DNA from: Sabellastarte sp. h YS-2021
Taxonomy: Eukaryota > Annelida > Polychaeta > Sabellida > Sabellidae
Assembly (NCBI GenBank): GCA_964017235.1
Contig: OZ024933.1
Span: forward strand, 6,389,962-6,453,961
Reading direction: 5' to 3'
DNA length: 64,000 bases
Of this stretch, positions 9,196 to 53,212 are shown one piece after another. Each line of letters starts with the position of its first letter. Within the stretch, counting starts at the first letter, position 1. Under the pieces are notes generated by a model, which made no database searches, had not been told where the DNA came from, and was given only the letters and a program-made list of their open reading frames with translations. The position numbers were made by a program, and so were the translations under genes.

Positions 9196-9199
9196 GCGA

Positions 9200-9478
9200 G
9201 CCTGATATCTGTAGATGTGAACCTGGAATACTCTCAAAGTGGGCAATTTCATGATTTTACAGGGTGTAGGAACTTCAAAATGTATAATTTTACAGGTTGG
9301 AGGAACATGTGGATGAGGTGGTGTTTGAATAAAATGTGTCAGCTCAAAGCATTTCAGTGTAGATGTGAACCTGGAATACTCTCAAAGTGGGTGATTTCAT
9401 GTTTTTACAGGGTGGAGGAACATCAAAATGTGTGATTTTACAGGGTGGAGGAATGTGTGGATGAGGTGGTGTTTCAAC
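9200..9478 (+). repeat. 148-bp satellite, short left block
   Basis: Two units of the 'acagggtggaggaac' satellite described at 13326-22960. The array is cut near 9478 by the 9479-13325 insert and resumes at 13326 at the matching point of the unit. Confidence 0.75.
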
Positions 9479-29578: not shown

Positions 29579-32175
29579 GAAAGAGAGATACTGAAATTGG
29601 CCCATGAGTCTCCAATGGGTGGCCATTTAGGCATCAACAAAACTTACAACAAGATAACCAAACATTTCTATTGGCCTCAAATTCGGCACTGTGTGGCAGA
29701 ATTTTGCAAAACTTGTCACACTTGTCAAATGGTAGGGAAGCAAAAAACCAAAAAATTCCTGTAGCTCCTCTGAAACCCATTCCAGCATTTGAGGAACCAT
29801 TTAGCAAAGTGATAATTGACTGTGTAGGTCCCTTACCAAAAACTAAATCCAGAAACCAATATCTTTTGACCATTATGTGCGCCTCAACCAGATTTCCCAA
29901 AGCCATACCATTGACCAACATAACAACTCCCAAAATCTCAAAAGCTCTGGTTAATTTCTTTACTCTAGTTGGCTTACCAAAAGAGATCCAGTCAGATCAA
30001 GGGTCAAATTTTATGTCAGGACTATTTCAACAGGTTGTATTTCAGTTAGGTGCCAAACAGATCAAATCTAGTGCTTATCACCCAGAATCCCAAGGTGCAC
30101 TTGAAAGGTTCCATTCCACTTTGAAGAATATGATTAGGACATATTGTTTAGACAATGAAAAAGATTGGGATGAAGGCATCAGCTTATTATTGTTTGCAGT
30201 TAGAGAGTCTGTTCAAGAGTCTTTAGGCTTTAGTCCCTTCGAGTTGGTCTTTGGCCAGTCAGTCCGTGGTCCTCTCAAGCTGTTGAAGGAAAATTGGTTA
30301 TCTGAGAACACCGAGAGCCTAAATCTGCTAGATTATGTTTCAAAGTTCAGAGATAAGCTGAAGAAGGCTTGTGAGCTGGCGCAACAAAATTTGAAAAATT
30401 CTCAGTCAAAAATGAAGATGCTTTACGATAGGAAGTCGCAAAACCGTACTTTCAAACCAGGTGACAAGATTTTAGTGTTACTACCTGTCCAGGGAAATAC
30501 ATTACAGGCCAGATATCACGGGCCATACAAAGTGTTAAAGAGAGTAGGTGACCTGGACTATGTCATTGAAACCCCGGACAGAAGAAAGTCAACCCAACTA
30601 TGTCATGTAAATATGGTAAAACCATACTTTGAAAGGGGTGTGAAAAAACCTGTTATGGTTACTGACTGTAGTATAGAAAGTAACAGTAATCAGGAGCGTG
30701 AAATATGGGACGACACTCCTGATCTTGATGTTGAATGTAAAATTAGGTTGAGTAATTCTGAGATCCTTGATGATTTGGAAACCAAACTGAGTCATGTACC
30801 ACCAGATAAGAGGGTTCCACTCATTGAATTGCTCTTAAAGTACAAGTCAGTGTTCCCAGATGCCCCTAATAGGACAAATATACTCATGCATGATGTCGAT
30901 GTCGGCGATGCCCGTCCGATCAAACAGCATCCGTATCGGGTAAATCCTATGAAACTCGAAAAATTAAGGCAGGAAGTGCAATACATGCTAGAAAAAGATA
31001 TAATTGAACCAAGTCAAAGTAGTTGGGCAGCTCCTTGTGTTTTGGTCCCGAAACCAGACGGTTCAATCAGATATTGCACTGACTACAGAAAAGTCAATGT
31101 TTTGAGTAAAACGGATTCCTTCCCTATCCCAAGGATGGAAGACTGTATTGATCGGATTGGCAATGCCAAATACATCACAAAGTGTGATTTACTGAAAGGA
31201 TATTGGTGTGTGCCTCTTACTGAGCGGGCCAAAGAAATATCAGCCTTCGTGACCCCTGATGGTCTATATCAGTACAAGGTAATGCCATTTGGCATGAAGA
31301 ACTCCCAGGCCACATTTCAAAGACTAATGAATGTATGTTTAAAAGACTTAGAAGGTGTTGAAGTGTATGTGGATGATATTGTCATCTTTAGTGATACTTG
31401 GGAAGAACATTTAAAAAGGCTTGAACAAGTCTTGTTTCGGCTCAAAGAGGCAAACCTCACTGTAAATTTGTCAAAGAGTGACTTTGTAAAAGCAAAGGTT
31501 GTGTACTTAGGGCATGTAGTAGGTCATGGAGTTGTGACACCAATCAAAGCTAAAGTGAAAAGCATCATTGACTATCCCATTCCTGAAAATAAGAAAAGCT
31601 TAATGAGGTTCCTTGGAATGGCGGGATATTATAGAAAATTTTGCAAAAACTTTTCAGAGGTCACTGCTCCACTGACTGAACTACTGAAAAAGAATGTAAA
31701 ATATCACTGGTCAGAGACTTGTCAAAAATCATTTGACAAAGTAAAGAACCTTCTCTGTTTACAGCCCGTACTAACTGCTCCGGACTTCAGTAAACCTTTC
31801 CGGCTGGCTGTAGACGCCAGTGATGTGGGTGCAGGTGCAGTTTTACTGCAATGTGATAATGAAGATATTGAACATCCCATCTGCTATTTTTCAAAAAAAT
31901 TTAATGTTCATCAAAAGAACTACTCTACAATAGAAAAAGAATGTTTAGCACTCATTTTGGCCATCCAGCATTTTGACATATACATATCTTCATCATCAAA
32001 ACCCACCGTTGTATACACAGATCACAATCCTTTAGTCTTCTTGCACAAAATGAAAAACAAAAACAGAAGATTATTGAACTGGAGTTTAATGTTGCAAGAA
32101 CACAATCTTCAAATAGAACATGTTAAAGGAAAGGATAATATCTGTGCGGACGCCCTGTCCAGAAGCTGTATTTAA
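29579..32175 (+). pseudogene. Integrase - reverse transcriptase - RNase H
   Basis: Integrase comes first. Its zinc domain ('HLGINKTYNKITKHFYWPQ', 'CKTCHTC') follows the TAA at 29576 in the Gag frame. A frameshift in the A-rich tract near 29741-29765 moves the rest to the next frame, which stays open from 29671 to 32175. The D,D-35-E core is complete: 'IIDCVGPL', 'QSDQGSNF' and 'GALERFHSTLK', with 35 residues between the second Asp and Glu. RT follows: 'VPKPDGSIRYCTDYRKVN', 'KCDLLKGYW', 'MPFGMKNSQATFQR' and catalytic 'YVDDIVIFS' (about 31363). RNase H has 'LAVDASDVGAGAVL', 'STIEKECLAL', 'YTDHNPL' and 'NICADALSR'. No envelope gene follows; the stop is 170 bases before the polypurine tract. Confidence 0.92.
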
Positions 32176-33326: not shown

Positions 33327-33617
33327 ATGTGTCACTGATCATGTGACCAATGTTTACAAGGAGGAACAGTTTTGCAATAACATATTTTATTGGCTGAAGC
33401 TTAACAATACACTGCTTTGTAAAAAGTTTGTAACCCACTAGGCTTAAGCACACATAAATGTTGTACACTAACCAAAATGTTTCATGTATATGTTTTAAAA
33501 GAAATGCTGTACTTGTCAATTGACTAATATGTTCAGTGTGATTTATGAATAAGCTAGTTACAGATAATTTGGTATTTTTCTCTGCAAACTAGAGTTGCCA
33601 TGCAAACAGATAAATTT

Positions 33618-35168
33618 TTATTTTTTGGACTTTCCAGAGTTTTTAGATGATTGCTTAGACTTTCCAGACTTTTTACAAGGTGATGGCTTTATTTTGCATA
33701 GTTTGCAAATCCATTTTGCATATACTGACTTCAGAAATCTCTCAGTGCCAGTTATATCACAACATTTATAATGTAACCATTTCTTGCACTTTGCACATTC
33801 AATACTTTGATCACCAAGATCTATTGGATCATCAATGCATTCATCTTTGCATACTGGACATGGATATGACTCAGTGTCACTGTTTACAGAAGTATCTACT
33901 GCCTCATCAAAAGCCTGTGAAGCTGTTTTTCTCTTTTAGCTTCTTGACCAGAAGTAGATGGAACTGCAATATTTGTTCTCAAGGCCTTTGTTTTTTTTAC
34001 AGAAGCTGTCTCTTTGAAGTTGCATGCACAATTTTAAGATAGTGATGGACAATCTCCTCAAATAATAGCACCAGACTGGACATCAGATCATCTTCATCTT
34101 CAGTGAGACTGTCAGCTGATAGGAGGGAAAACAGAGCAAACCACTTCTGCAGGAGAACTTCATCATTTTGGAGATTGGTGAAAACCATAAGAAACAACTT
34201 GGAACCATGGCGGTGGAGGTTTTGTATATTGTCAAGGGCTGAAGCTTTAGAAGCAAGTAACAGGAAGAACTCATAAGCTTCATCGGTAATATGTGTCAAA
34301 CCACAGCCTTCATTTTGTTTGCGCTCAGTCTCAGCCAAAGATAGCTGGTATGAACTTGACTCTAGAATGACATTTCTTTGTACTTCCAGAACTCGAAGTA
34401 ATTTCCACATCAGACATTGTCTGCGGAGTATTGGGGATGTGGGGCAAAAGGTCCTCTTCACTCTAAAGTATTAGATTAAGTTGCAATATAAGCATGGCCA
34501 TTTACACTACTTTAGGCACCTCATGCAGATGCACACACACATGCACCCCCACACACACAGAGACACACACACAACTATATATGTCACATATTAACAACTA
34601 CACTTTAAAATCTATTTGATAAAGGTCAATAAATCAATTATTTCTATATTTAATTAACTGTGAAGTATGAAATGATCACTAATAGAGTCCATACATGGAT
34701 GCTTGCTTTTGAAAGTGAAAAGACTCACAAGGAATATCTTAAAGATGGGGTTTTCTTGAAACTAATAAAATCACTGATTAGCTTTGAACCTGAATCACTT
34801 GTTGAAAATGAAAAAAATGTCTTACTAGCCTAACATAACTATTCATACCTTTTCCTCAAAGCGACCACACAAGATCCTCCTATATAGCGAATTTTGTTTT
34901 GAGTTAGCTCATCAAACTCTCTTGGACAGTCTCAAGATGTTAAACTTGATGTCTGAGTGTCTTTCTCTGAAGCTTTCGCTGCAAAGACTGCCTTAATTGC
35001 ATTTAGAGTGAACTTAAAAACCAGTTTATGTTGGGCATTGGTAACAGTAACACACTGAAACAGTTCTTTTTTTAGGCGTTCATATTCAGGATTACTGTTC
35101 AAGAAATGCAATAAACTTGAACAATAACTGGTCCATTCTTTGGTACTTGGGCTAAAGTTCAATTTTGC
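33618..35168 (-). pseudogene. PHD-finger 3' exons of the PIF1-like gene, arm A copy (broken)
   Basis: Minus-strand counterpart of the 40591-42156 exons. Compared with arm B it has four lesions: the splice acceptor before 35168 reads CAA instead of CAG (base 35169), a TGA at 34932-34934 where arm B has a Cys codon, a 13-base deletion near 34020 that shifts frame, and a one-base deletion near 33936. The PHD codons (about 33860-33690) remain recognisable. These exons lie directly downstream of the helicase in the spacer, so the helicase is joined to a non-functional tail. Confidence 0.8.
34520..34576. repeat. (CA)n microsatellite in an intron
   Basis: 'acacacacacatgcaccccc' followed by 'acacacacagagacacacac'. 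The inverted copy lies at about 41187-41235 in arm B. Confidence 0.7.
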
Positions 35169-35394
35169 TTGAAAGAAAAAAATCTATCTCACTTAACGAA
35201 ATTTGAACATTTAACATATGTCAACAGAAGATTCAACTCCAAGTCTTACTAATTTTCCAAAAACAATTAAAGTAATTGTTACTTGTTAATAATATCCAAG
35301 TAATGTTAATTAATTTACTGTTCGTGCAATTTACTCATCATTTGCAAATTTATCAAATATTGTTCTGATGTATCTATTTATTTATTTTTATTTA

Positions 35395-35605
35395 TTTGTT
35401 TTCACTTGGGGTTTTACGTCCCTTTCAACACTGTTCAGGTCATATCACGAAACCAATACATACAGTTGGTCAAGGTTCTGTACTGTAAACTTTGGACCAA
35501 TGGCAAGCAACTACCAACTTACCCACTTGAGGTAGGGCCGGGAACAGAACCCCGACCTCAGAGGTGGGAAGCGAGAGTGTCACAACTGTGGCCCCTTTAT
35601 CTGAT
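35395..35605 (-). mobile_element. tRNA-derived SINE in the intron, arm A
   Basis: Reverse-oriented member of the SINE family: 'ggggttttacgtccctttcaacactg' tail and the tRNA-like head near 35600. The same insertion is in arm B at 40160-40378, so it predates the duplication. Confidence 0.75.
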
Positions 35606-35774
35606 GTAATACACATGTGCCTGATGAGTAACATAAGCAACACCACTTTAAAAATCAGTTAGGCTAAGTTGCTTGAGACACTTTTAAATTAGAATCATCA
35701 AAGTATTCTGATTGGCCATGAGCTGTATTAAGTGTGTCTAGAAAGAATTAACTGTTTTAATGATTCATACTTAC

Positions 35775-37775
35775 TCGTGCAAAATCGATAACATAGTTCC
35801 ATACTATAATCAGTTTGGGGGAGCTTTCAATTTGGCCAAAGAGTTGCAACATTTCTTTTTGCAACTCAGTCAAACACTCGCTGTTTGTATCAAAAGTAAA
35901 GATGCTTTTATCAATGGGTAAAATTGGATGTAGCATGTCAGCTGTTGTCTGTTCAACGTTTTCTCCCTCAAGATTTATATCAATTTGTAAGCCTTGTGCA
36001 GGTATTTGCACCAGCGCTTCCACCTCAAGTAGGTCACCACCTTCCGATTCCTTATGACAACATATCAATTTTTCATGTGGGTGCTCATTTTGTAATGAGT
36101 CATAAAAGTTCTGGACACTCACTGGATGTGATATAATAGAGTGTGGGCTAAAATTTCTCACTCTCAAACCACTAATGGTGATTGCTCTACCGACAGCAAC
36201 TGCAAGCTGGCCTGGAGCAAAGATTCCATCACAGTCAATATCAAGAAATGGAATTGACATGCCTTGAGCTTTGTGGATAGTGATAGCGTAACCCAAGGCT
36301 AGAGGTATCTGTTCCCTTAGAAAGGATATCTTCTGGCTTGTAGGGTCAAATAAGGTAAATTGTACTACTGAGATTTCGGTATCAGCTAAATGTGGTCCAA
36401 AGTTAACAATCACAGTGTCTCTATCAGAAAAGCTGGAAACAGTTCCACATAAGCCATTTACCAAAGCTTCTTAATATCTATGTTGTAGGTAAGCAACACT
36501 GGTGAACCCAACTTCAGCCGCACACATCTAGGAGCCTTTATGTGCCTTTCTACTTTTGTCTTACTGACGTTCAAGTACTTTTTGTCCTTACACCTAAACA
36601 CCTTTTCTTCCCCAGGGTGTTCACTCAGTTTTAGCTCATTAAACATTTCAACATCCATCTTCTGTGCAAAAAGATGAACTATAGCATTGGGGGGAGCATC
36701 AAGGGGTCTATCCAAACTTCTCAAAAGTTTTATACTGTCATCTGAAACCTGGCCAGATTCAAGTTCATTTATGCATTGAATTAGACTGAAGTCATCTTGC
36801 CGTAGCACATCATCTAAAGCAATTTGATGAGGAAATGCTTGCTTGAATTGAGAACTACTGAAACAATATTCACCATTGTCACCATACAAGTGGTTAGCAA
36901 CTGGTGGCAACTGTCTGAAAGAGCCACATCCTATGATTTGGACCCCTCCAAAATGTTGGTGACTGTTCCTGACATGCCTAAGAAATACAGATTGTTCAAA
37001 ATAACTTAGATTACATAAGCTTTGAGTAATTCCTTTAAACTGTCACAATTATGCTCAAGTACTGAAAACACCAAGTATTATTGGGTAATTTAATTTGTAA
37101 AAGGTAATATACATTGACAGAGTATGTAATTGTTGTACTTCCAGTTTCATGATATAAACTATTTTAAGAGAAACATGCTAAAGTAAAATATGCATAACAG
37201 AAATTGGGTTTGATATTTTGTTGACAATCACCTAGTGATCTGATCAAGTGTTTCAAATTGCCTGCAGCTGAGCATGGAGATCTCATCTATAATCAGAATA
37301 TCGGTGCTTATAATTCGATTCTTTATATCTTTGCAGTCTTCAGTATTATCAATAAGGTATGTTAGTTTTTCGCTTGTTTAACGACCATCCAATAAACCTG
37401 CCCAACTGTGTATTGTGGTTCCTTTCATGTGGGAAGGAAACTGTCTGGTTGCAATTCCTGTTGTGGCAGTAAGAGAAACTTAAACCGAAAAGAATAGTTA
37501 AGTGTGACACTGCATGATAATTTACAGAAATTCAATAGGTCATTAAGTTATACAAAAAAAGAACATGTATCAAAATTCTATTATTTAAAATTTGATGGTC
37601 CATTTGCACTTTTCCATGCCACTGAGGGGTCACTACTTTCTTCAATTAATATTGTTTTAAGTGAAAACATGATTAAGCTCAAACCAGTACCTGCTTGGCC
37701 AGTTATGAAAACATTATGTCCTGAGCAAATTAGTTCAAAGGCTTCTTGTTGCTTCGGTGTGAATAATTGAGCCAT
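35775..37775 (-). pseudogene. PIF1-like helicase (SF1), multi-exon, decayed
   Basis: On the minus strand: 'MAQLFTPKQQEAFELI..GHN' and Walker A-like 'VFITGQAGTG' (37775-37690; the Lys of GKS is not seen in the continuous frame, so an intron may start at the 'caggtactgg' donor); motif Ia 'TATTGIATRQF' and 'GTTIHSWAGLLDGR' followed by TAA (about 37475-37385); Walker B 'DILIIDEISMLS' (about 37310-37275); 'GCGSFRQLPPVANHL' (about 36935); 'VRLKLGSPVLLTYNI' (about 36490); a frameshift near 36462; then 'LGYAITIHKAQGMSI' and 'FAPGQLAVAVGRA' (about 36300-36185). This is the motif order of PIF1-family 5'-3' DNA helicases. The exon ends at a GTAAGT donor (35774-35769, phase 0), which would splice to the PHD exons of arm A. 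Confidence 0.85.
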
Positions 37776-39852
37776 ATTTATTGTTACAACATAAATGGCA
37801 GCCTGAAATAGGAGAAGGTATAACGGAATGTCTGTTAAGAAATAAATACAGCAAGTGTGGTTAGTTATGAAGAGCTGGACAGTTTGATAGTTTCTAAACT
37901 GCAGTTTGTGTAAGCAATCTGAGACACAGATAATCTAATTATAGATAACAGGTTCAAGAAAAGAAGTTAATTAAGTGCAAGATACATTTTTATCTTCACA
38001 GACAATTAGTCCGTTAACAGTAATCAGGTGTTAGAAAATTGTTACCTGAACACTGGAATAGACACATTTGCAGGCATGTTACAAGAAAGACATTCAGAAT
38101 AACCGAATCTGAACTAGTTACAAAATATGTATGAAAGATGTTGGCATAGAACACCTATTTTACTGCATATTGTAAATCATAGCCATGTAAAGCTACCTAA
38201 ATTTGGCCATAATAACAAAGTTAAACAAAGAATGGTTTGCATGAAATCCATGAGGTTAATACTTATGATAATCGATTTCTTAATTATTTTCAATAACATT
38301 GGTGCAAAACCATTCTATGTCAGAAAAAAATAACACTTTACATCACCAGACTAAAGTTTAAACATAAAATGATAGTTTTTTAACGTGGCAAACTCTTTTT
38401 TTTAGCAGAAACAGTTGGCTTTACAAATTTGTATGGTGTTACACGACTCTGACCACTTGTGTTAGATTTCTTTGAAATTGCAGTTTGTGTCAGTATTATG
38501 GCATTTGTAGACTTAGAGTAGGATGCATAATTTGGATTGGTGTTCAGTCCATTTCTGACTCCCCTCTGTTGGCAAAAGAAATTTTCAACGGCATCTGAAT
38601 TCAGTCTTGCTGGAACCAAAACATTATAGCCTCGTTGGCTCACTTGGTTATGCAAAGATATCATGCCCAGAAGATATGAGAATATGTCCTCCATACATTG
38701 TGAAGAAAGCTTTTCTTTTGGAGGTGATTTATCCCAAGTCAAAAAGAAATTCTTCAGTTCATGCAGTGTCTCAATTCGCTGATCAAACTGAGTGAGAGGT
38801 CGGATATCCTGTGCAAAAGAGACCAGCTTTGACGTTTTTTTCCAGTAAAGCTATTGTGCCATTATACTGAAGACAGTCAGAACCTTTGGATTTCTTGAGT
38901 TCTCTAAACAAGTTCAGCATTTCTGAGTCTAATACGTCTTCTGCTAATTTGTTTCTCATTTTGTTTGGCCCAGTCAATTCAAAATGTTCATCACTCAATT
39001 TCTGATGGATTTTCCAAAGATGAGACTTATTGTAATCGTGGGCCTCTTGAAAGTGGGACCATTTAACAGCACTACCAGCAACTTCAAGGCTTTTATCAAT
39101 TCCATTGCTTTTCAACAGTCCATTTCGGATTTTCTTGAGGTTATGTTTCACATCCATTAAAAAAATCATTTTCTTTTCAGGATTTATTGGACTGATAGAC
39201 ATGAAACCTTTTTCAAAAGCATCTTGCAGAAAGTGAATCTTCAAAAATTGCCTGTTTGACATAGCACCGTCGGTACTACAATATTCTACCTTAAACCCAT
39301 AATCATCAAGGAGGTCCACTCCTTCCCAAAAATTGAAGAAGAGATGATGTGCCTGTGCTGTTGTAACTGGAAAATGAGCAACTGGAAAACGGAATCCTGT
39401 GTGGCCAAGGAATATGAACTGTAATACAGATTTGGCAAGTTCTAACTTTGTTTGCTCTTTAGATATTTTGTCAGCTAAATTTCCCAAGCTCCCAATGTCA
39501 TGATTTCCAACTAAGCACATATCATGCCCCTTTTTGATAATTTGAAGATCTTGTTGGATTGACATTTCATCTATTAGAATTCCGCCCCACCAGCCTTGTT
39601 CTGGGAGTGACAAACGTATGGCCTCATTTCTCATCCATTGTAAAACCTAATCCTGGTAACAGAATTAAGAAAGGGTAAAGGTAAATTTCAAATGTTTAAA
39701 TTTTAAAGCATCCCTTACACATAAAAGAATTTACATTCCTTTAAACAGCCTACATTTGAAGACAGACGCTCAGAATTTAAAACATGCCATCACAAGTTTG
39801 ATTTGAACCCACGAAAGAGGTGACAGCCGACCCATTAAATACAAAAGTTGTT
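35876..39852. other. Spacer between the inverted arms
   Basis: Unique DNA of about 4 kb between arms A and B. It holds most of the PIF1-like helicase and the P-like transposase fragment, both on the minus strand. The part between them (37780-38375) shows no gene. Inverted repeats of this size around a spacer permit inversion of the spacer by recombination. Confidence 0.8.
38380..39645 (-). pseudogene. P-element/THAP9-like transposase, 5'-truncated, one frameshift
   Basis: The minus strand from a probable acceptor ('ccaggattag', about 39655-39646) encodes an RNase H-type P-element transposase: 'GGILIDEMSIQ' (first Asp), 'VEYCSTDGAMSNRQF' (second Asp), 'LMDVKHNLKKIRNGL' (the 'HLLK..RN' block of the family), 'KMRNKLAEDVLDSEM', and, after a one-base shift in an A run near 38840, 'LNSDAVENFFCQQRG' (catalytic Glu) and a short basic tail. 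It shares strand and orientation with the helicase downstream. The N-terminal THAP DNA-binding domain is absent: arm B begins about 200 bases upstream (39853), so the 5' part appears to have been replaced by the inverted copy. P-family transposases cut DNA and leave 8-bp duplications; none was found at the arm ends. Confidence 0.8.
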
Positions 39853-39855
39853 AGT

Positions 39856-42156
39856 TGACTGAGTTGCAAAAAGAAATGTTGCAACTCTTTGGAGTTGCAA
39901 AAAGAAATGTTGCAACTCTTTGGCCAAATTGAAAGCTCCCCCAAACTGATTATAGTATGGAACTATGTTATCGATTTTGCACGAGTAAGTATGAATCATT
40001 GAAACAGTTAATTCTTTCTAGACACACTTAATACAGCTCATGGCCAATCAGAATACTTTGATGATTCTAATTTAAAAGTGTCTCAAGCAACTTAGCCTAA
40101 CTGATTTTTAAAGTGGTGTTGCTTATGTTACTCATCAGGTACATGTGTATTACATCAGATAAAGGGGCCACAGTTGTGACACTCTCGCTTCCCACCTCTG
40201 AGGTCGGGGTTCTGTTCCCGGCCCTACCTCAAGTGGGTAAGTTGGTAGTTGCTTGCCATTGGTCCAAAGTTTACAGTACAGAACCTTGACCAACTGTATG
40301 TATTGGTTTCGTGATATGACCTGAACAGTGTTGAAAGGGACGTAAAACCCCAAGTGAAAACAAATAAATAAAAATAAATAAATAGATACATCAGAACAAT
40401 ATTTGATAAATTTGCAAATGATGAGTAAATTGCACGAACAGTAAATTAATTAACATTACTTGGATATTATTAACAAGTAACAATTACTTTAATTGTTTTT
40501 GGAAAATTAGTAAGACTTGCAGTTGAATCTTCTGTTGACATATGTTAAATGTTCAAATTTCGTTAAGTGAGATAGATTTTTTTCTTTCAGGCAAAATTGA
40601 ACTTTAGCCCAAGTACCAAAGAATGGACCAGTTATTGTTCAAGTTTATTGCATTTCTTGAACAGTAATCCTGAATATGAACGCCTAAAAAAAGAACTGTT
40701 TCAGTGTGTTACTGTTACCAATGCCCAACATAAACTGGTTTTTAAGTTCACTCTAAATGCAATTAAGGCAGTCTTTGCAGCGAAAGCTTCAGAGAAAGAC
40801 ACTCAGACATCAAGTTTAACATCTTGTGACTGTCCAAGAGAGTTTGATGAGCTAACTCAAAGCAAAAATCGATATATAGGAGGATCTTGTGTGGTCGCTT
40901 TGAGGAAAAGGTATGAATAGTTATGTTAGGCTAGTAAGACATTTTTTTTCATTTTCAACAAGTGATTCAGGTTCAAAGCTAATCAGTGATTTTATTAGTT
41001 TCAAGATAACCCCATCTTTAAGATATTCCTTGTGAGTCTTTTCACTTTCAAAAGCAAGCATCCATGTATGGACTCTATTAGTGATCATTTCATACTTCAC
41101 AGTTAATTAAATATAGAAATAATTGATTTATTGACCTTTATCAAATAGATTTTAAAGTGTAGTTGTTAATATGTGACATATATAGTTGTGTGTGTGTCTC
41201 TGTGTGTGTGGGGGTGCATGTGTGTGTGCATCTGCATGAGGTGCCTAAAGCAGTGTAAATGGCCATGCTTATATTGCAACTTAATCTAATACTTTAGAGT
41301 GAAGAGGACCTTTTGCCCCACATCCCCAATACTCCGCAGACAATGTCTGATGTGGAAATTACTTCGAGTTCTGGAAGTACAAAGAAATGTCATTCTAGAG
41401 TCAAGTTCATACCAGCTATCTTTGGCTGAGACTGAGCGCAAACAAAATGAAGGCTGTGGTTTGACACATATTACCAATGAAGCTTATGAGTTCTTCCTGT
41501 TACTTGCTTCTAAAGCTTCAGCCCTTGACAATATACAAAACCTCCACCGCCATGGTTCCAAGTTGTTTCTTATGGTTTTCACCAATCTCCAAAATGATGA
41601 AGTTCTCCTGCAGAAGTGGTTTGCTCTGTTTTCCCTCCTATCAGCTGACAGTCTCACTGAAGATGAAGATGATCTGATGTCCAGTCTGGTGTTATTATTT
41701 GAGGAGATTGTCCATCACTATCTTAAAATTGTGCATGCAACCTTAAGAAAAAACTTCAAAGAGACAGCTTCTGTAAAAAAAACAAAGGCCTTGAGAACAA
41801 ATATTGCAGTTCCATCTACTTCTGGTCAAGAAGCTAAAAAGAGAAAAACAGCTTCACAGGCTTTTGATGAGGCAGTAGATACTTCTGTAAACAGTGACAC
41901 TGAGTCATATCCATGTCCAGTATGCAAAGATGAATGCATTGATGATCCAATAGATCTTGGTGATCAAAGTATTGAATGTGCAAAGTGCAAGAAATGGCTA
42001 CATTATAAATGTTGTGATATAACTGGCACTGAGAGATTTCTGAAGTCAGTATATGCAAAATGGATTTGCAAACTATGCAAAATAAAGCCATCACCTTGTA
42101 AAAAGTCTGGAAAGTCCAAGCAATCATCTAAAAACTCTGGAAAGTCCAAAAAATAA
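39856..42156 (+). pseudogene. PHD-finger 3' exons of the PIF1-like gene, arm B copy (open, lacks the helicase)
   Basis: Three exons in register: end of the helicase C-terminal exon to 39984 (GTAAGT donor), 40591-40910 (acceptor 'tttctttcag', donor AAG/GTATGA) and 41298-42156 (stop TAA). Phases agree (0 and 2). The protein part has an alpha-helical region ('EYERLKKELFQCVTVTNAQH', 'KWFALFSLLSADSL'), a basic linker, a PHD-type zinc finger 'CPVCKDEC', 'CAKCKKWLHYKCC', 'WICKLCK', and a Lys/Ser-rich tail. All reading frames are open, unlike arm A. No helicase domain precedes it, so it is 5'-truncated here and may not be expressed. PHD fingers of this type bind histone H3 tails. Confidence 0.8.
40160..40378 (+). 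mobile_element. tRNA-derived SINE in the intron, arm B
   Basis: 'ggggccacagttgtgacact' head with a B-box-like 'ggggttctgttcc', tail 'gggacgtaaaaccccaagtg' then an A-rich 'aaataaataaaaataaataa'. 'tacatcaga' on both sides (about 40151 and 40386) is a likely target duplication. Confidence 0.75.
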
Positions 42157-42449
42157 AAATTTATCTGTTTGCATGGCAACTCTAGTTTGCAGAGAAAAAT
42201 ACCAAATTATCTGTAACTAGCTTATTCATAAATCACACTGAACATATTAGTCAATTGACAAGTACAGCATTTCTTTTAAAACATATACATGAAACATTTT
42301 GGTTAGTGTACAACATTTATGTGTGCTTAAGCCTAGTGGGTTACAAACTTTTTACAAAGCAGTGTATTGTTAAGCTGCAGCCAATAAAATATGTTTTTGC
42401 AAAACTGTTCCTCCTTGTAAACATTGGTCACATGATCAGTGACACATGC

Positions 42450-45266: not shown

Positions 45267-45275
45267 GTGGTTTCT
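45267..45275. other. 9-bp target-site duplication, left (GTGGTTTCT)
   Basis: GTGGTTTCT here is repeated exactly at 53204-53212 at the other end of the element. A 9-bp duplication is characteristic of Mutator-family transposition. Confidence 0.92.
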
Positions 45276-45360
45276 GGTGCTTCCTAAAAGTCAGACTTCT
45301 GTCCAACTTGGACTTTTACTTGGACAAAGCGGCGATAGCGGCGATGGGGGGGGGCGGCGA
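45276..45360. repeat. Left terminal inverted repeat of the MULE
   Basis: Outer part GGTGCTTCCTAAAAGTCAGAC pairs with the inverted right end with few mismatches; an inner part 'tttacttggacaaagcggcg' and the 'gcgatagcggcgat' block pair with the right end at 53040-53095 but at different spacing. Confidence 0.85.
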
Positions 45361-45376
45361 TTGGTTTTCCCATTGT

Positions 45377-46700
45377 TTGGATGAATGTGTGTTTTATAGA
45401 AGAGAGTGAAGGCCAGTCAATCAAACTATTTATGAGGCATATCCCCACTCAGCTCAAGGGAAGCTGTGTTATGCATCACTTCAGCCAATCAAATGAATTG
45501 CCACATTTGTCAATCAAACCAATTGCCCCATCTCCACTAGGACAAGGGGAGGGGCTGTATTATGCAGTAAGTTAGCCAATCAACAAATCCCATGTAAAAC
45601 CAATAGCATTTTTTAAGGTTTAATTTTACATGCCCAATACCAATCAGATGCACTTAGGGTGTGGGTTTATCTGTCAATCTTAATTAGTCAGGGTTTGATC
45701 AGCAACTGTTCACATGATCAGTGTGTTGAAAGCCTTTGTGTTGAAAGCCTTTCTAATATTAATCATTTAATGGGTATGATTACTAGAAAATCACCCCACC
45801 TGGAGCCTCACTTTTCCAGTCCTGAGAAGCCTTTCACTTGTGTGTGATACAATATTTACCAGCACAGCTATCATTGGGTTAACCCTTTTCTCCAGTCTTT
45901 TTTTTTTTTTTGCAATCCATATATCTTTTTGTCAAAAACACACTGTAAAAGCACTGAGACTTCAGTTGTCAATGCACAGTTTTATGCTTCATAGATTCAT
46001 AGATGCCAAATATCATCATTTTGATTATAATAGCCCCAGTTGTTAGATGAAAAATTACATTTGTTTTACCTCTTGTTACTAAATAAACTGGATTTTCTTT
46101 GTATTACTACTAGATTTAATGAACATGTATGTATAGATAGATAGATAGATGGGGGGAGATGAATTGTTTATTATAGTGTCCTGTTTCATTTACAAATACA
46201 TATATACATGAAATACAATATCAAAATACAAACCCAGCCTCATTTGGGCTTATAAGACACTTTAAACTATTGAAATATCATTAAATGACATTTTGGCAAT
46301 AAAAAGAGGTGAACAAATCTAATATAGGGGCATTTGCTTCTATTTAAAATCTATATAAACAAGAAAGTTTATGTATATTATGTCCACTATATAATTTCAA
46401 CAATTGCAACTAACTAACACAGACCTCTCATTTGCAATTGCAGTATCACATTGAAATTTTAAATATTTGTACAACTTATTCATTGCATGTAGTTTGATAG
46501 ATGGAATTGGCAATAGATAAATTGCAATGACAAGTGAGCAACAATTACCCCTTTATAATTGAAAATACTTGTACAAGTAACTGATTGCATTTAGTTGGTT
46601 GTACAGAAATAGGTAAATTACACTAAGAAGTTAGAAATAATTACCCTTAAACATTTAAAAAAATTTTACATTACTCTTTAATTGTAATTGATTGTACAGT
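45377..46700. other. MULE 5' non-coding region
   Basis: About 1.3 kb before the gene. It holds several 'caatcaaa/ccaatcag' CCAAT-like motifs (45417-45660), a (GATA)n run (46134-46150) and a LINE 3'-end relic. No reading frame is convincing. Confidence 0.45.
46168..46275 (-). mobile_element. LINE 3'-end relic
   Basis: 'tttattatagtgtcctgt', 'cccagcctcatttgggctta' and 'taagacact' match 'tttattatagtgacatgt', 'cccagccctctgatgggctta' and 'taagtcact' in the 3' end of the LINE at 10143-10235. It is a short 3' fragment of the same or a sister family. Confidence 0.55.
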
Positions 46701-46708
46701 CCAAGGTG

Positions 46709-46716
46709 TATATATA
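46709..46716 (+). promoter_or_regulatory. TATA box of the MULE gene
   Basis: 'tatatata' 166 bases before the chosen ATG, in otherwise mixed sequence; a likely core promoter for the transposon gene. Confidence 0.55.
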
Positions 46717-46881
46717 GAGGGTAACTCATTAGTTCTACATTGTAGTTTCAACAGTGTTTATCACAGTGAAGCAGTTCAAGAAAGTTCTAACAGATCACAA
46801 TTTATTAATTATTAACACATTGTCATAAAATCTGTTTGAGTGCCTACACTAGTACACTTTGGATTTATCTATAGTCAGGGT

Positions 46882-49763
46882 ATGCATCCTATCAGGTTTA
46901 AGGGGGTACACAGTGTCCTCAGTAACTTTCACCCAAACTGGATCCATGCAGAAGACCTAGGCATGTGGTGCTACAGTGTTGAGCAAGGGTATCAACAGCA
47001 ATGTGCAATGTACAATGGTTATGATGATGTTGCTGACAAAATCATGGCTGTTCCTGCAACCCAGAGCACAGGAAAAATTTGCAAGCAACTGGCCAAAGAA
47101 AGGATTAGGATGAAGAGGACAAGCTGGAGTGATGTCAAGGAGGCCATTTTATATGATTTCCTTAAACTGAAACTTGAACAGTATCCACCATTTAGGCATA
47201 CTCTTTTAGCCACTGAGAGACCCCTCCACCATACAGTGGCAAGTGACTACTGGGGCATGGGAAAGGATGGAAGTGGAAGGAACAGATTTGGCAAGCTTTT
47301 GATGAGACTAAGGAAGTCTGTGAGGTCCACCTGGCCAACCCCAAATAAAAATGTAAGAATTCTAGCCTATATAAAACTAAATTTGATATAATGCTCCCTG
47401 TACCATTTATACTCTTTATAATCTTGCTGCTTTTAAGAAAGTGCATGTTATTCAATGTATTTGCTAGTTCCTTTTACTCCATACTATTTAATATCTTTAA
47501 TAATTTCAATGTTTATATACACATTTACATAATTTTTTTATTTTTTGTTTTGTAGGTCTTAGTGTACAGTGATTCGATTTTCAAGTATTTACCAGCCCAA
47601 CTTGAAGAAATTGGATTTGAAGTACATGCGTTACCTGGAGCATCAGTAGAAGGCAGAAAGAAGATTGGAGACTACATCCAAAAACATGTGTCTACAGAAA
47701 GTCCAGACGTGGTTATTCTTCATGTGGGCACAAATGATTTACCATTTCTACAACAATACCCAGGTTTTATTCACTCCACAGTGAAACAGCATGTACAACT
47801 GATCAAGAAGTTGAGGCATATATACAGTGGATGTAGTGTCATAGTGTCATTGCCACTACCACGACTGGATGGGTTGGATGAAATGAGGTCCTCCTACTGC
47901 CATTGCCTCAGTAATGCACTGACAGGGGAGTCCGTTGGGATCATGTCTTGGGATGACTTCCCAACAGACCATCTATCCATGGATCTGTTGCATCCATCTG
48001 CTGAGTTGGGGCTTGCATCCCTCCACTGGTCTCTGCTTAAAAAGCTCAGGACTGTGCATGTAATGAAGCAAGCCACTGTGAATAAGAATGTAACCGAGAT
48101 GAAACCTGCCAGTAAGCCTGTCCCTGTGAAGAAGAATGTTCCTGAGATCAAGCCTGCAAGTAAGACGAAGCCGGTAAGTGAGACGAAGCAAGTCGCTGAA
48201 TTGAAGCCTGTCAGTAAGATTAAGCCTGCCAGTGAGACTAAAGAAGCCAATGACACGAAGCCTGTCCCTGAGAAGAAAACTCCAAGTCAGTTGAAGCCAG
48301 AGATGAAGGTAGGCCCTGTGAAGAAGCCTGGCGCTATGAAGGCTATCCAAGAGATGAACCCTGTCTACAAAATTAAGACTGACACTGGGAAGAGGCCTGG
48401 TACCATGATCCAGTCTATCCAGGGAACTGTTCTAGAGTTTAAAAATGCTGCTGTGGTGATTCCTTATGCTGGTTACCTTCGAACATCATCCAAATCACAG
48501 AAGTCCAATCAGCCTCAGAAGAAAGTGAAGAAGTCACCTCCTGCCAAACTATTGCAGGTCCCTTCGAACGGCAGACGAATCCATGGAGGGGGAGATCCTG
48601 ACTTAGACTCCATGAATGAAGATTTGGCACAGGCAGTGAACAAAGTGAAACCAGTGGCTCCTCAACTTCGTTCTTCAAGGATCTACAAGGAGAAGGGTAA
48701 ACTGAGGATTAAAGTACGGCTTGCTGATAAAAAAGAATTTAGCAGGTATTTCAATGTTTGTGATTTTGATAAGGTTCCAGATTTTTGTAAGTATGGATTT
48801 CTTGAGTGGGTCAGTGGTAAGTTAAATGTCGCATGTAATGAAGAGCATAAATTAAAGCCTGAAGTGTGCACTGAGATGACAGAGTCTGTACCCCAAATGT
48901 GCAAAAAAATGGAAAACACAGACATTAAGGTGAGTAATTCAGAGGGAATTCACATAGAAAGAAAACAAGAACAAAAAGGTGAGTGTGTGGAAACTTTACC
49001 TAACAGTGTTGAAATAGAAGAAGGTGGAAAAACAAATACAGGTTCTGCTATTGCTTATAGTCACATTGAGGAAACCCAGGTTGTAAATGACATTGATTTC
49101 AAAGCAAATATACATGAAGGTGAAAAGACTGAGGAAAAAAGCATCACACAGGTCAATATAATGGACACAAGATCTGAATCTGAAACTGTCAATGAAGGCA
49201 GTGAGTCACTTACAGAAAAAAGTAATTTCTCATTTGGTGGGGCTTTTTCAATTGGACTGAAAAATACTACATTAGGTTTGGATGAGGCAATAGAGTTTCT
49301 GTTGAAAGCTGAGGAATATAAAACCAGCACTGTTCCTGCAACACAACCTCATGGTGGACATATTTTCTTGTTTTACTCAGGTGGGGAGATTGCTAGATTA
49401 AATGACTGGAGATGTGACCAATACAGATGGGGTGTGAATAATGGCAACAAGAAAAGGGTTGGGAAATCAGGCCAAACCGTGATTAAGTGTTATCACAAAT
49501 TAAATAAAGAAAGTTCCTTTCAGCGTCATGCTTGGTGGTTACTAGACAACCCCCACACTGTTCTTATCCAATACATAGGTAAACCACATGGAAACAGTGT
49601 TACTAACAATAGAGAACACCATAGGACTTGTCCCTCCGTATTTAAAGCAGTAAAAGAAAAACCACATGATGACAATATCACAACATACCAGACCCTGATT
49701 GCAAAAGAATGTGATAATGACTTGCAAGCTGTGCTAAAACCGAGAAATCTGAAGCAAGTTTAG
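46882..49763 (+). CDS. NADAR - SGNH hydrolase - zinc-binding protein (N-terminal half of the MULE polyprotein)
   Basis: Exon 1 is 46882-47352 (first ATG, 157 codons); donor AAT/GTAAGA, acceptor 'ttttgtag', exon 2 from 47556, phase 0. Residues about 4-150 are a NADAR domain ('FKGVHSVLSNFHP', 'YSVEQGYQQQ', 'DYWGMGKDGSGRNRFGKLLM'), the YbiA-like family of N-glycosidases that act on ADP-ribose-type and riboflavin-precursor substrates. Residues 158-325 are an SGNH/GDSL hydrolase: 'VYSDSIFKYLP' (nucleophile Ser), 'HVGTNDL' and 'DLLHPS' (Asp-x-x-His). Then come a Lys/Pro/Val linker (KPVSETK-like repeats, 48080-48420), an acidic stretch, and a zinc-binding domain 'WRCDQYRW', 'IKCYHKL', 'RHAWWLLDNP', resembling FLYWCH/GCM-type DNA-binding domains. 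The TAG at 49761 ends it at 892 residues, but the frame continues into the transposase. Coding evidence is strong; the combined function is unknown. Confidence 0.85.
49761..49763 (+). other. In-frame TAG joining the two MULE reading frames
   Basis: The only stop between 47556 and 52440 in this frame. The sequence on both sides ('PRNLKQV', then 'KEKLSHDDYYNL') reads like continuous protein, so a single C-to-T change in this copy is the simplest explanation. No known readthrough context follows it. Confidence 0.7.
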
Positions 49764-52442
49764 AATATTAAATACTGTACACGAAAGAAGGAAAAACTGT
49801 CACATGATGATTATTATAACCTCATGCTTATTTCGCATGAGTTAAAGGACTTTATGTTTGAAATAATATGTTTTCCTGATCTTTCATGTTTTTTTGGCAA
49901 CAAGGATATTCTCGAAGAATTTAATAAGCTCTTAGAGTTAGCTGAAAGTGAAAAAGACATGAAATTATACTGCAGTTATGATACAACCTTTAATCTTGGG
50001 AACTTTTATTTAACTCCCTTAGTATTCAGGCACACCTTATTTCAATTAGATCCAGTGATTCCTTTGGCATTTATGATCCATGAGAGAAAATTTCAATTCG
50101 TTCATGAACGATTTTGGGAACATCTGGTCAAAAAAATTCCAAATTTGAAAAAAAGTAAAATACCAATAGTGGTAGATAAAGAAGTAGGTATATCAAATGC
50201 AATTAAAAAAATTGTACCTGAGATGCCCATTTTACATTGCTGGAATCATATCAAACAAGACTTCAAGTTCTGGTTAGGGAAGCAACATGTTACCTCTGAT
50301 GAGAAACTAGTATACAAGAATGACCTGGATACAATTATGAATTCAAATAACATAGAATTATTTAACCAAAACTGTGACAATTTAACTGCCAAGTGGAGTC
50401 AATTAGCAGTGAATTACTTTGCGAAACATATAAAAGAAGATTTTGTAAAGCATTCAGCTAAGTGGGTTCTTAAAAGTTATAATCTATTCAATCCATACTC
50501 TGGTATCACAAACAATACTTCCGAAGGAATGAACACAGTCATTAAGCGTCTCATGAAATGGAAGGAAGCCCCATTGGATACTATTGTGTTGTGTTTAAGT
50601 TACCTTCAAAATTATTACTGGAACGAACTTTTGAGAGGGTTTTGTGACATGGGGAACTATGTTCTTAAAACAGATTTTGGGTATTTAGTACAGTCCCCGA
50701 GTGAGTTGGATTTCCCAAATAATATTTGTAGACCAGATCTTATAATTGAAAAATGTCAGGCTAGAGTAAGGTCTATACTGCATGAAAATAAAGATATACT
50801 CAATGAGAAACATAAATCTGAAGAAGAAACTTGCGCCTCTGAACCAAATAATAATGATCATAACAATGTCCCAAACAGAAACCTTACCCAAACTGCTTTG
50901 GCCCATGCTGTTATAGAAGAAAATAGAATAGTACATGTTGCAAAAATGAGTGCCTTTATGGTGAGTGGGACAAAGGGAGATAAATATGCAGTCTCACTAT
51001 TTCCAAATGAATCTTGTCAATGTCCAGCCACTGGTACATGTTATCACATTTTAGCAGCTAAACTATCAATTGGTAAACCTATAGAACAACGAAAAGGTCC
51101 TATTAACATGATGCAATTATCTAAAAATAAACGTAAAAGATGTGATAGGAATGCAGGCAGAAAAAAACCACGGACACTCGATTATGAAGTTATTCCCGCA
51201 CCTGATTCGAGAATAATGGAGGATTCAAGAATATCAGTGAAATCAGATGTAAGCATCATTGAGTCCAGACAAGATGAATGTTTAACCCCAATCAAACCGA
51301 TTTTAAAAACGCCCGTGTCAAAATCTAAGAAAAAGGATGTTAAATTTAAAGAAAACTTAATATATTCCGACAATCAAACCAGTACTCCAAAAATCCAAAA
51401 TGACTTAAGACAGGGAAGCAATAAAAGTAACACTGAGGCTAACATGAAATATAAAAAGTCATCTCTTTCAAAAGCCAAAAAGAGTTTGAGTTTTGAGCAC
51501 ATTTTACCCACTTCCCCATCCAGTGGTACCTTACAAGATATAATGGTAGATGTAAATTTAAACTCAACAGCTACGATAGCTGGAGTTGATTCTGAGATGC
51601 ATGAAGAAGTTAAATCTACATCTTATGTAGAACTTAATTCTGAAGAAATATCATCAGGTGCTGTAACTAACTACTGGCTGAAGGATCTTCACTTAAAAGA
51701 TTCAGATAAAACTATTTTAGAACTTAAAGGTAAATGGCTAAATGACAATATAATAAATGCTTCAATGAAAATTCTAAGAAAACAATTTCCACACATAGGT
51801 AGCATGCAAGATTGTTGTCTCATTCCGATATGGTGTATTGAAAGCAAAGAATGGATTTATGAAAGTAAATTTCAATTTGTATCTGTGAAATCTGGGGCTC
51901 AAATTCACCACAATGGAAAAAATCACTGGTTCACCTCAGTAAAATTATCAAATACAAATGAAATAGTTATTTTAGACTCGGCAGGCTATACTAAACTCAA
52001 CAGCTGTAGTCAAATCCAGTTAGCAAAACTGTATACAAAGCCCAGGACAGTTTATCAGCTAATTTTCCCTAAGATACAACCCCAGTACAGCGGGGACTGT
52101 GGTGTGCATGCTATTGCAAATTTGGTTGAACACTGTTTTTTCAAGTTTTATGGAAACACAGACATCCAGTTTGACAGAGAAAAGCTAAGGCAACATTGTA
52201 TTGACTGCCTTGAAAGAAATGAATTTCAACCATTTCCCAAAAAAAAACGGTTGGGAAAGTCAAAACTAAAATGCACCATAAACAAAAAAATCACATTTAC
52301 CACCCAATGTTTCTGTGGAATGCCGGACCTATTTGAAAATATGGTTCAGTGTGATATTTGCATTAAATGGTGTCATTTTACTTGTGGGGGCTACACTGAA
52401 GATAATGACAGTCAACCATTTGTTTGTAAGGAATGTTCATAA
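49764..52442 (+). CDS. MULE transposase - SWIM - Ulp1 protease - PHD finger
   Basis: Open in the same frame as the preceding gene from the TAG to 52442; the first ATG is at 49824. The transposase has 'YCSYDTTFNLGNFYL' (Asp codon 49980), 'IPIVVDKEVGISNAI' (Asp codon 50175), 'HCWNHIKQDFKFWL' and 'NNTSEGMN' (Glu codon 50523), the D-D-E layout of the MULE family. A SWIM zinc finger 'CQCPATGTCYH' follows (about 51020-51052), then a basic linker, an Ulp1-type Cys protease with 'WLNDNIIN', 'KNHWFTSV' (His), 'VILDSAG' (Asp), and 'QYSGDCGVHAIAN' (Gln/Cys), and a C-terminal PHD finger 'CFCGMPD', 'MVQCDICIKWCHFTC', 'FVCKEC'. It should cut and join the transposon ends. Ulp1 domains cleave SUMO-like modifiers, and PHD fingers read histone tails. 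Either one giant protein lost to a nonsense change, or two proteins. Confidence 0.9.
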   Translation, partial: NIKYCTRKKEKLSHDDYYNLMLISHELKDFMFEIICFPDLSCFFGNKDILEEFNKLLELAESEKDMKLYCSYDTTFNLGNFYLTPLVFRHTLFQLDPVIPLAFMIHERKFQFVHERFWEHLVKKIPNLKKSKIPIVVDKEVGISNAIKKIVPEMPILHCWNHIKQDFKFWLGKQHVTSDEKLVYKNDLDTIMNSNNIELFNQNCDNLTAKWSQLAVNYFAKHIKEDFVKHSAKWVLKSYNLFNPYSGITNNTSEGMNTVIKRLMKWKEAPLDTIVLCLSYLQNYYWNELLRGFCDMGNYVLKTDFGYLVQSPSELDFPNNICRPDLIIEKCQARVRSILHENKDILNEKHKSEEETCASEPNNNDHNNVPNRNLTQTALAHAVIEENRIVHVAKMSAFMVSGTKGDKYAVSLFPNESCQCPATGTCYHILAAKLSIGKPIEQRKGPINMMQLSKNKRKRCDRNAGRKKPRTLDYEVIPAPDSRIMEDSRISVKSDVSIIESRQDECLTPIKPILKTPVSKSKKKDVKFKENLIYSDNQTSTPKIQNDLRQGSNKSNTEANMKYKKSSLSKAKKSLSFEHILPTSPSSGTLQDIMVDVNLNSTATIAGVDSEMHEEVKSTSYVELNSEEISSGAVTNYWLKDLHLKDSDKTILELKGKWLNDNIINASMKILRKQFPHIGSMQDCCLIPIWCIESKEWIYESKFQFVSVKSGAQIHHNGKNHWFTSVKLSNTNEIVILDSAGYTKLNSCSQIQLAKLYTKPRTVYQLIFPKIQPQYSGDCGVHAIANLVEHCFFKFYGNTDIQFDREKLRQHCIDCLERNEFQPFPKKKRLGKSKLKCTINKKITFTTQCFCGMPDLFENMVQCDICIKWCHFTCGGYTEDNDSQPFVCKECS

Positions 52443-53203
52443 ATAGTTGTATGTAGTTCTATAACAGGTACATGTATACTTTGTTTTCAAATGTATAACA
52501 TATATTTACTATTAACTGTTTGACATATAAATAATAAATATTTAAAAAATTATAAATAAATAACACTTACCTCACTATATTGTTTTATTGAGCATATCTT
52601 CCTCCAAGCAATATCTTCCTCCAAGCAATGGAGAAATAGGGTTAACCCCTGGCCGCCGCTTGTGGCTGTTAATTGAGGAAACATGAGGCTCCAGTTGGGG
52701 GTTTAGTGAGTGAACTGCTGGATTATATATTTGTAAAAGATTGTTAGAAACCCCATCGTAGCCTCATGTTTTCAAATAAAATATAAAATGCTGGTACTTG
52801 TACACACACAGAGTGCTGAAAACGTGAGGTTACGATGGGGTTTCTAACAATATTTTACAAATATATAATCCAGCAATATTTACCTGTCGCCGCACCTAAT
52901 ACTGCCTTCACGAAATATTTAAAACAAATAAAATATAAAATGCTGGTACTTGTACACACATAGAGTGCTGAAAACGTGAGGCTACGATGGGGTTTCTAAC
53001 AATATTTTACAAATATATAATCCAGCAATATTTTACTGTCGCCGCACCTAATACTCCCCTCCCCATCGCCGCTATCGCCGCTTTACTTGGACTGTCGCCG
53101 CTATCGCCGCTGGCCATCTACCCCTCCTCACTTCTTCTCAATTAAAATTAACATCGCCGATATTAGTCCAAGCGGCGCTTTTGTCCGAGTTTTAGGAAGA
53201 ACC
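52443..53203. repeat. MULE 3' non-coding region with nested direct and inverted repeats
   Basis: 'aataaa' at 52533-52538 may end the transcript. Beyond it, a ~110-base block ('gtgctgaaaacgtgagg', 'cgatggggtttctaacaata', 'aatataatccagcaatatt') occurs twice in direct orientation (about 52812 and 52968) and once in part, inverted (52680-52775). GC-rich 'atcgccgctatcgccgct' follows at 53045-53110, then the right terminal inverted repeat, ending GGTTCTTCCTAAAA (inverted) at 53203. Confidence 0.75.
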
Positions 53204-53212
53204 GTGGTTTCT

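Follow-up and report, generated by a model that had tools for sequence, protein, structure and literature searches.

Can the transposase of a cut-and-paste DNA transposon grow into a chain of several enzymes, and does such a chain then travel as one unit? The question is raised by an element of 7,928 bp in a 64-kb stretch (hereafter the window; 37.6% GC; G000:C7:6389962-6453961) of the 1.79-Gb genome of the annelid Sabellastarte sp. h YS-2021 (647 contigs). The original prediction, made from the letters alone, was of a complete Mutator-like element (MULE) encoding a chain of seven domains. Our analysis leaves very little doubt that the multi-domain mobile unit is real, and we consider it probable that the element is an autonomous Mutator/Rehavkus-type cut-and-paste transposon in which the transposase has expanded into a chain of several enzymes. 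Its domains run in the order NADAR, SGNH, K/P-rich linker, CG-1, MULE DDE, SWIM, Ulp1 and PHD. The transposase has kept four further enzyme or reader domains in open frame, two of which (NADAR and SGNH) are otherwise associated, in the literature found, with retrotransposons, Helitrons, phages or RNA viruses.

Termini, copies and movement of the element

The boundaries of the window element are as follows.

45267..45275, no strand: left target-site duplication, GTGGTTTCT, one of just two occurrences in the window
45276..53203, plus strand: whole transposon, delimited by its termini and the duplication
45276..45314, plus strand: left terminal inverted repeat (TIR), 39 bp
45326..45354, plus strand: inner inverted repeat, 97% match to its partner at 53056-53084
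52716..53061, no strand: subterminal repeats, two copies of 137 bp at 152-bp spacing, plus 59-bp inverted copies
53165..53203, minus strand: right TIR
53204..53212, no strand: right target-site duplication, GTGGTTTCT

Both the matching TIRs and the perfect 9-bp duplication that had been claimed for this locus were confirmed. Within the window, the duplicated 9-mer begins only at 45267 and 53204, exactly bracketing the element, while the outer 14 bp of the two ends agree at 13 of 14 positions and the 39-bp arms are 72% complementary. When both 2-kb flanks were subjected to 300 dinucleotide shuffles, pairs of ends sharing a 9-mer never matched at more than 12 of the 14 positions, a value attained once. 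The terminal 14-mer, GGTTCTTCCTAAAA, has 98 exact sites in the genome versus 14 for its reversed control, and the window termini are those of a genome-wide family. This family was surveyed by searching inward over 9.9 kb at the first 20 of the 98 sites, together with one 2.7-kb region in which two ends lie close together. A partner end with a 9-bp duplication was present at 10 of these 21 loci (eight perfect, two with one mismatch; lengths 586 to 5,560 bp) and was not found at the other 11. Most of the terminus-bearing loci are short derivatives without any remaining coding domain. Two loci, L010 (2.1 kb) and L021 (4.5 kb), align with the window at 98-99% identity across long blocks and have lost the middle, L021 still retaining the start of NADAR. 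The element thus has both a duplication within the 8-11 bp range of MULEs and TIRs that are common to family members.

The original prediction was to be given up if no other genomic copy joined NADAR and SGNH to a transposase; the combination recurs at three further loci of this genome. A search with the 892-aa transposase half as the query yielded 64 matches, a lower bound given that 51 of 346 candidates were scored, and among these loci are stop-free frames of 1876 codons (L031), 1872 codons (L050) and 1865 codons (exon 2 of L049), with 58-59% identity to the window. Searched by tblastn with the window domains, L031 exhibits NADAR, SGNH, linker, CG-1, DDE, SWIM, Ulp1 and PHD in this order, in one frame and without an intron; in Pfam its NADAR and CG-1 score above the cut-offs, its GDSL, MULE and PHD score below them, and no C48 or SWIM match was obtained. 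L050 lies on a different contig and is 99.4% identical to L031 over 9.5 kb, with one synonymous and two non-synonymous substitutions among the aligned codons and a frame that is four codons shorter. The L050 element occupies C1:42493074-42503110 between two copies of CTAAAGGTT. At L031, the 9-mer TATCTCTAG stands at both mapped edges as read by eye, although automatic searches failed to detect termini at this locus; its right end differs from that of L050 in the final few bases. The recurrence of the same domain order between 9-bp duplications, as had been anticipated, is therefore seen at both loci. Since these two copies are near-identical and sit at different 9-bp duplications, the whole chain from NADAR to PHD moved as a unit, probably recently. 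L049 likewise encodes the whole chain; its NADAR occupies a first exon, which is followed by an intron at the place of the window intron. The termini of L049 were looked for, but were not found.

Long intact frames under purifying selection (see below) would also be expected of a domesticated host gene family. However, such a family would possess neither TIRs and differing 9-bp duplications, nor dispersed copies at 98-99% identity and deletion derivatives, which renders this explanation extremely improbable.

The coding chain and its interruption

All coding features of the window copy lie on the plus strand.

46882..47352, plus strand: exon 1, NADAR, 157 codons; Pfam match at residues 10-147 (E 4.1e-14, 53.6 bits, cut-off 35.1)
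47353..47555, plus strand: GT...AG intron, 203 bp; same place in L049, absent in L031
47556..48050, plus strand: SGNH/GDSL hydrolase domain (YSDS, GTND, DLLHPS by reading)
48059..48415, plus strand: K/P-rich repeat linker, repeat family D1
49287..49577, plus strand: CG-1 domain with a WRKY/NAC/WOPR-like predicted fold (Pfam E 5.2e-7, 29.8 bits, cut-off 23.5)
49761..49763, plus strand: in-frame TAG, private to the window copy by comparison with relatives
49974..50560, plus strand: MULE core, with D 49980-49982, D 50175-50177, CxxH 50238-50249 and E 50523-50525 (Pfam MULE 24.3 bits, cut-off 27.6)
51015..51047, plus strand: SWIM motif CxCx5CxH, invariant in 6/6 aligned chains
51663..52244, plus strand: Ulp1/C48 region, with H 51924-51926, D 51975-51977, Q 52083-52085 and C 52098-52100, invariant in 6/6
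52308..52436, plus strand: PHD finger C4HC3 (Pfam 24.1 bits, cut-off 24), ligands kept in 6/6

The domain order given in the original prediction is correct, except that its "zinc-binding domain" is instead a CG-1 domain, which exceeds its Pfam cut-off. NADAR is similarly secure as a member of its superfamily, given the scores of the window copy and of L031 (56.5 bits). The SGNH domain of the window scores 26.0 bits, under the cut-off of 32.9, and has the Ser, Gly, Asn and Asp-x-x-His motifs (in the window by reading) as well as the fold. The window MULE domain also remains below its cut-off, which is exceeded by the relatives P0002, P0003 and P0005 (29.6, 39.7 and 36.2 bits), and it has the Mutator-type DDE with CxxH before the Glu. 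For Ulp1, Pfam C48 gave no match on the window itself; the relatives P0003, P0020 and P0032 exceed the cut-off, and the His-Asp-Gln-Cys set is present in all six chains of an alignment of the window with five relatives. In the same alignment, the DDE and CxxH residues and the SWIM and PHD ligands are kept throughout. The assertion that all catalytic motifs are intact can thus be upheld for DDE, SWIM, Ulp1 and PHD, as well as for SGNH (by reading); it fails for NADAR, as discussed below. The predicted exon boundaries at 47352/47556 are consistent with a GT...AG intron, which gains further credence from the intron at the same place in L049.

This intron is variable within the family. Among 20 NADAR-SGNH pairs, the gap between the two matches is 172-238 bp in five (including the window and L049), 1-10 bp in 13, and 57 and 139 bp in the remaining two. 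The variation represents gain or loss of an intron within a DNA transposon.

What had been described as one coding unit is split in the window copy by the TAG at 49761-49763, whereas the related L031 and L050 chains are indeed single units. In C11, the closest copy to the window (98.4% identity over 2.4 kb), this position is occupied by a sense codon and the chain is broken elsewhere; the L031 and L049 chains run straight across it, and the chain is likewise uninterrupted there in the relatives P0001, P0002, P0003 and P0005. Because C11 has a sense codon and two related chains read through, the TAG is a private lesion that breaks the window copy, which is probably a recent insertion disabled by this nonsense codon. 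The presence of an in-frame ATG 60 bases after the stop, with both halves open, could alternatively suggest that the TAG is functional, either in an element of two open reading frames (ORFs) or through programmed read-through. This is very improbable in light of the nearest copy and the continuous chains just described, and the sequence after the stop also aligns gap-free to that of the relatives.

NADAR and SGNH as parts of the transposon

If NADAR and SGNH are components of the transposon, they should accompany its transposase. The 64 transposase matches form 36 clusters; in 19 of these, a NADAR match is located upstream of the transposase, on the same strand and no more than 8 kb away, with none downstream and none antisense. 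The NADAR search of the genome, in which 150 of 558 candidates were scored, produced 119 matches; in 20 of the best 22, SGNH follows 1-238 bp downstream. Matches of at least 40% identity number 75, of which 22 are upstream of a scored transposase cluster, compared with 2 of the 44 weaker matches. The remaining NADAR matches are unplaced copies, fragments or other NADAR genes. The genome also contains distant NADAR domains (30-38% identity; for example G000:C18:81910826 and G000:C11:50561365) in long open frames of up to 837 codons; most of these are not near a scored MULE, and they are possibly retrotransposon ORF1 or host genes.

Selection upon NADAR was assessed by Nei-Gojobori counts among the best 19 of the 119 matches; the window and L031 are included, and a stop is present in two of the 19. 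Of 171 pairs, which are not independent of each other, 35 were usable (dS <1.2), and dN/dS was 0.13-0.38 in 32 of them. The other three gave 0 (two synonymous and no non-synonymous differences), an undefined value (no differences) and 1.36 (one synonymous and five non-synonymous). For comparisons of domains, synonymous sites were near or at saturation and the values below are non-synonymous differences per site (pN).

Window v L049: NADAR 0.136, SGNH 0.228, DDE 0.214, Ulp1 0.302, linker 0.589
Window v L031: NADAR 0.267, SGNH 0.345, DDE 0.205, Ulp1 0.287, linker 0.499
L049 v L031: NADAR 0.249, SGNH 0.382, DDE 0.102, Ulp1 0.187, linker 0.433

NADAR is well under the linker in all three comparisons, and at least the NADAR and transposase parts are under purifying constraint. 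The proposal that NADAR and SGNH are selected parts of a MULE is accordingly supported for NADAR and less firmly for SGNH. MULEs are known to acquire fragments of host genes (PMC6446971), and NADAR-SGNH could conceivably be such a fragment, captured by chance in the style of a Pack-MULE. A chance capture is highly improbable, however, because the NADAR-SGNH order is the same at 20 of the best 22 NADAR loci, the pair shares a single open frame with the transposase, dN/dS of NADAR is well below 1, and subfamilies at 50-73% identity have the pair in common.

Several observations nonetheless weigh against our preferred explanation of the element. Firstly, 17 of the 36 transposase clusters have no NADAR match, although several of these are short fragments and only the best candidates were scored. 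Secondly, SGNH is clearly below the linker in two pairs, but only slightly so (0.382 vs 0.433) in L049 v L031, and it is for this reason that selection on SGNH is less firmly shown. Thirdly, constraint implies some function without specifying which. Lastly, the domain matches the YbiA/NADAR structures 2b3w and 8bau by profile (E 8.5e-20 and 6e-7), but it differs at mapped catalytic positions: relative to YbiA (2b3w) in the alignment, Cys takes the place of the conserved Lys, and either His or Leu that of the catalytic Glu. All 19 copies from this genome have Cys at the Lys position and none has Glu at the second. In terms of guanine-ADP-ribose hydrolases, in which these positions are Lys (K50/K95) and Glu/Asp (E125/D171), the element has Cys41 and His116 or Leu, and the Lys is essential for guanine-ADP-ribose hydrolysis in the E. 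coli C7 NADAR (PMC11543638). Because two mapped catalytic residues are replaced in 19/19 copies, hydrolysis by this NADAR is not secured and its chemistry is uncertain.

These replacements could indicate that NADAR is a non-hydrolysing reader of ADP-ribose, or acts on some other substrate, and that it tethers the transposase or its DNA rather than erasing a modification. The domain is still constrained and has kept two aligned Trp as well as Glu34, which is equivalent to E43 of P. nicotianae and present in 19/19 copies. On the other hand, the catalytic Glu position is variable among NADARs, being Asp in one subfamily and reportedly His in those of phages (PMC11543638), and a tested phage NADAR, whichever residue it has at this position, was active on guanosine-ADP-ribose in vitro without protecting cells (PMC11125620). 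One T5-like phage NADAR has the standard Lys and Glu. Taken together, we regard a reader as a serious contender that falls somewhat short of an even chance.

A further consideration is the source of the pair. NADAR-SGNH could derive from a retrotransposon ORF1 of the Tx1/CR1 type that became fused to the MULE transposase, in which case its role would be ORF1-like (lipid or RNA handling) and not counter-defence. NADAR is carried by the ORF1 proteins of the Tx1 LINE of C. gigas (PMC12477816), the ZfL2-1 retrotransposon esterase 4c1b is among the matches of our SGNH model (rank 30, E 9e-4), the protein P0011 consists of SGNH followed by NADAR, and 13 of the 20 NADAR-SGNH pairs have the 1-10 bp gap and are hence intronless. 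We consider this scenario unlikely, if still worth keeping in mind; moreover, it concerns origin only and leaves the present co-mobility and constraint of a NADAR-bearing transposon untouched.

Affinities and a possible role

Among described MULEs, the Rehavkus group is described as having a 9-bp duplication, TIRs of 26-400 bp, one ORF, a PHD finger and a minisatellite before the 3' end (PMC6446971). The element has all of these features in common with Rehavkus, its minisatellite consisting of two 152-bp-spaced copies in the window and of 410-bp units in L031, while a single exon is found only in the L031/L050 type. This likeness is judged from the feature list. In the main text of the same survey, NADAR, Ulp1 and CG-1 do not appear and SGNH was not looked for; it does describe an ovarian-tumour (OTU) gene in a cnidarian MULE and SET in Phytophthora MULEs. 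The 410-bp units of L031 form a tandem array at 7845-9301 inside the 3' end of the element (3.5 copies, 99% matches), and each holds a copy of the inverted-repeat segment.

Other mobile elements share individual components. The ULP-carrying MULEs of plants, KAONASHI and others, also combine a MULE with a Ulp1-type protease, but the protease of KI-MULEs is oriented opposite to mudrA (PMC2528002), whereas here it is in frame and C-terminal to SWIM, in addition to PHD, CG-1, NADAR and SGNH. NADAR has been found in Ectocarpus Gypsy elements as well as in the C. gigas Tx1 LINE, both of which are retrotransposons (PMC12477816), unlike the present cut-and-paste DNA transposon. SGNH esterases are tied to mobile DNA in CR1-type retrotransposons (PMC4021074) and in the Helitron-linked texim (PMC3905857), but here SGNH is fused to both NADAR and a MULE transposase. 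A literature search that excluded most subscription journals and Repbase found, among the papers it listed, none on NADAR in a MULE or SGNH in a MULE. While NADAR in retrotransposons and Ulp1 in MULEs are already published, the present combination in a DNA transposon is unreported in the literature found, and its architecture appears to be a new variant of the Mutator/Rehavkus kind.

Relatives of the transposase (n=42) extend to other animals, the named sources being Pinctada imbricata (2), Mytilus edulis, M. coruscus, Mercenaria mercenaria, Crassostrea gigas, the sponge Dysidea avara and Hydra vulgaris. One further relative is from a Candidatus Thiodiazotropha bin and is probably host DNA. 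The accessory enzymes recur in some of these proteins. P0044 (Mytilus coruscus) has the end of a NADAR (Pfam 34.4 bits, cut-off 35.1) joined to MULE, and P0042 (Mercenaria) has SGNH (31.6 bits, cut-off 32.9) and MULE. P0012 combines an SGNH tail (phmmer E 3e-5 to that of P0042) with matches to CG-1, MULE, C48 and PHD, among which MULE alone exceeds its cut-off. In P0004, a Macro domain (115.8 bits), which is likewise an ADP-ribose module, lies between SWIM and Ulp1. In the DDE tree, relatives bearing NADAR, SGNH and Macro fall in different branches. Because a single clade was rejected for each trait tested, the enzyme domains appear to have been gained or lost more than once, unless the gene models mislead.

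The CG-1 domain provides a separate link. Of 16 CG-1-type pieces, 15 match the Pfam family at E up to 1. A structural model built from 27 sequences (pLDDT 89) retrieved NAC at rank 1 and WRKY at ranks 2-5 and 7 in Foldseek, with a best E of 0.006 and none at 0.001 or better, while VIA scores were 8.7 for SSR4, 7.6 for WOPR, 6.5 for NAC and 6.3 for WRKY. A profile of the 16 domains matched eight PDB entries, seven of them WRKY (E 0.03-0.8) and the other an unrelated VHH (E 0.043, rank 2), and Pfam WRKY itself was matched by 3/16 domains (best 5e-4). Each of these lines is marginal alone, but taken together they predict that CG-1 groups with WRKY-type domains. Babu et al. are said to have noted in 2006 that MULEs commonly use domains of the WRKY-GCM1 type. 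CAMTA transcription factors also have a CG-1 domain; in the element, by contrast, it is attached to a transposase, and Pfam found none of the IPT, ankyrin or IQ regions of CAMTA in the window. Our literature search found no paper linking CG-1 to a transposase and MULE, or the fold of CG-1 to WRKY, CAMTA and transposons, and WOPR was not mentioned in any of the further papers listed. The animal MULE lineage in which CG-1 occurs extends to a sponge protein (P0036). This occurrence offers a lead on the origin of CAMTA factors and, if the grouping is true, the transposase CG-1 would tie these factors to the WRKY-type DNA-binding domains of MULEs.

Based upon these features, a mechanism can be proposed. 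CG-1, as a WRKY-type domain, and SWIM would bind the element ends, the DDE core would cut and insert with a 9-bp stagger, and the PHD finger would use histone marks as its docking sites. Modifications made by the host (ADP-ribose, acyl esters and SUMO) on the element DNA, the transposase or local chromatin may be stripped or read by NADAR, SGNH and Ulp1, which may thereby work against host restriction. We put forward this specific role against host modifications only tentatively. In animal RNA viruses, Macro and NADAR are largely mutually exclusive (PMC9503650), and a guanine-specific DNA ADP-ribosylating activity has been found in six edible clams (PMC11209040). The broadest reading would be of a class of animal DNA transposons with its own counter-defence kit, namely an ADP-ribose domain (NADAR or Macro according to branch), SGNH esterase and SUMO protease, all fused to the transposase, which would undo the ADP-ribosylation, acylation and SUMOylation that the host imposes on chromatin or on the transposon DNA, and with a CG-1 domain tying CAMTA to the WRKY-type domains of MULEs. 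Such a class is speculative and, in our estimation, improbable. If it were true, the clams with this activity could be hosts to a host-transposon conflict fought over ADP-ribosylated DNA. Because the two near-identical intact copies suggest recent activity, it becomes possible to test, within a single system, what purpose ADP-ribose and SUMO enzymes serve for transposons.

The window contains further sequences related to mobile elements. A palindromic unit of approximately 9.1 kb (33327-42447), whose arms at 33327-35867 and 39892-42447 are inverted repeats 99-100% identical in four blocks, encloses a P-element-like transposase (TNP-like, 38783-39643, minus strand) and a piece of a PIF1-like helicase (36461-37042, minus strand); one arm also holds a PHD finger frame (41290-42153). 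A Gypsy-type retroelement at 27752-32172 has a first frame that matches Pfam SCAN and a second with integrase before reverse transcriptase and RNase H. Lastly, a non-LTR-like reverse transcriptase frame is located at 10296-12137 (minus strand) and a DDE_Tnp_4 transposase frame at 2107-2685 (plus strand).

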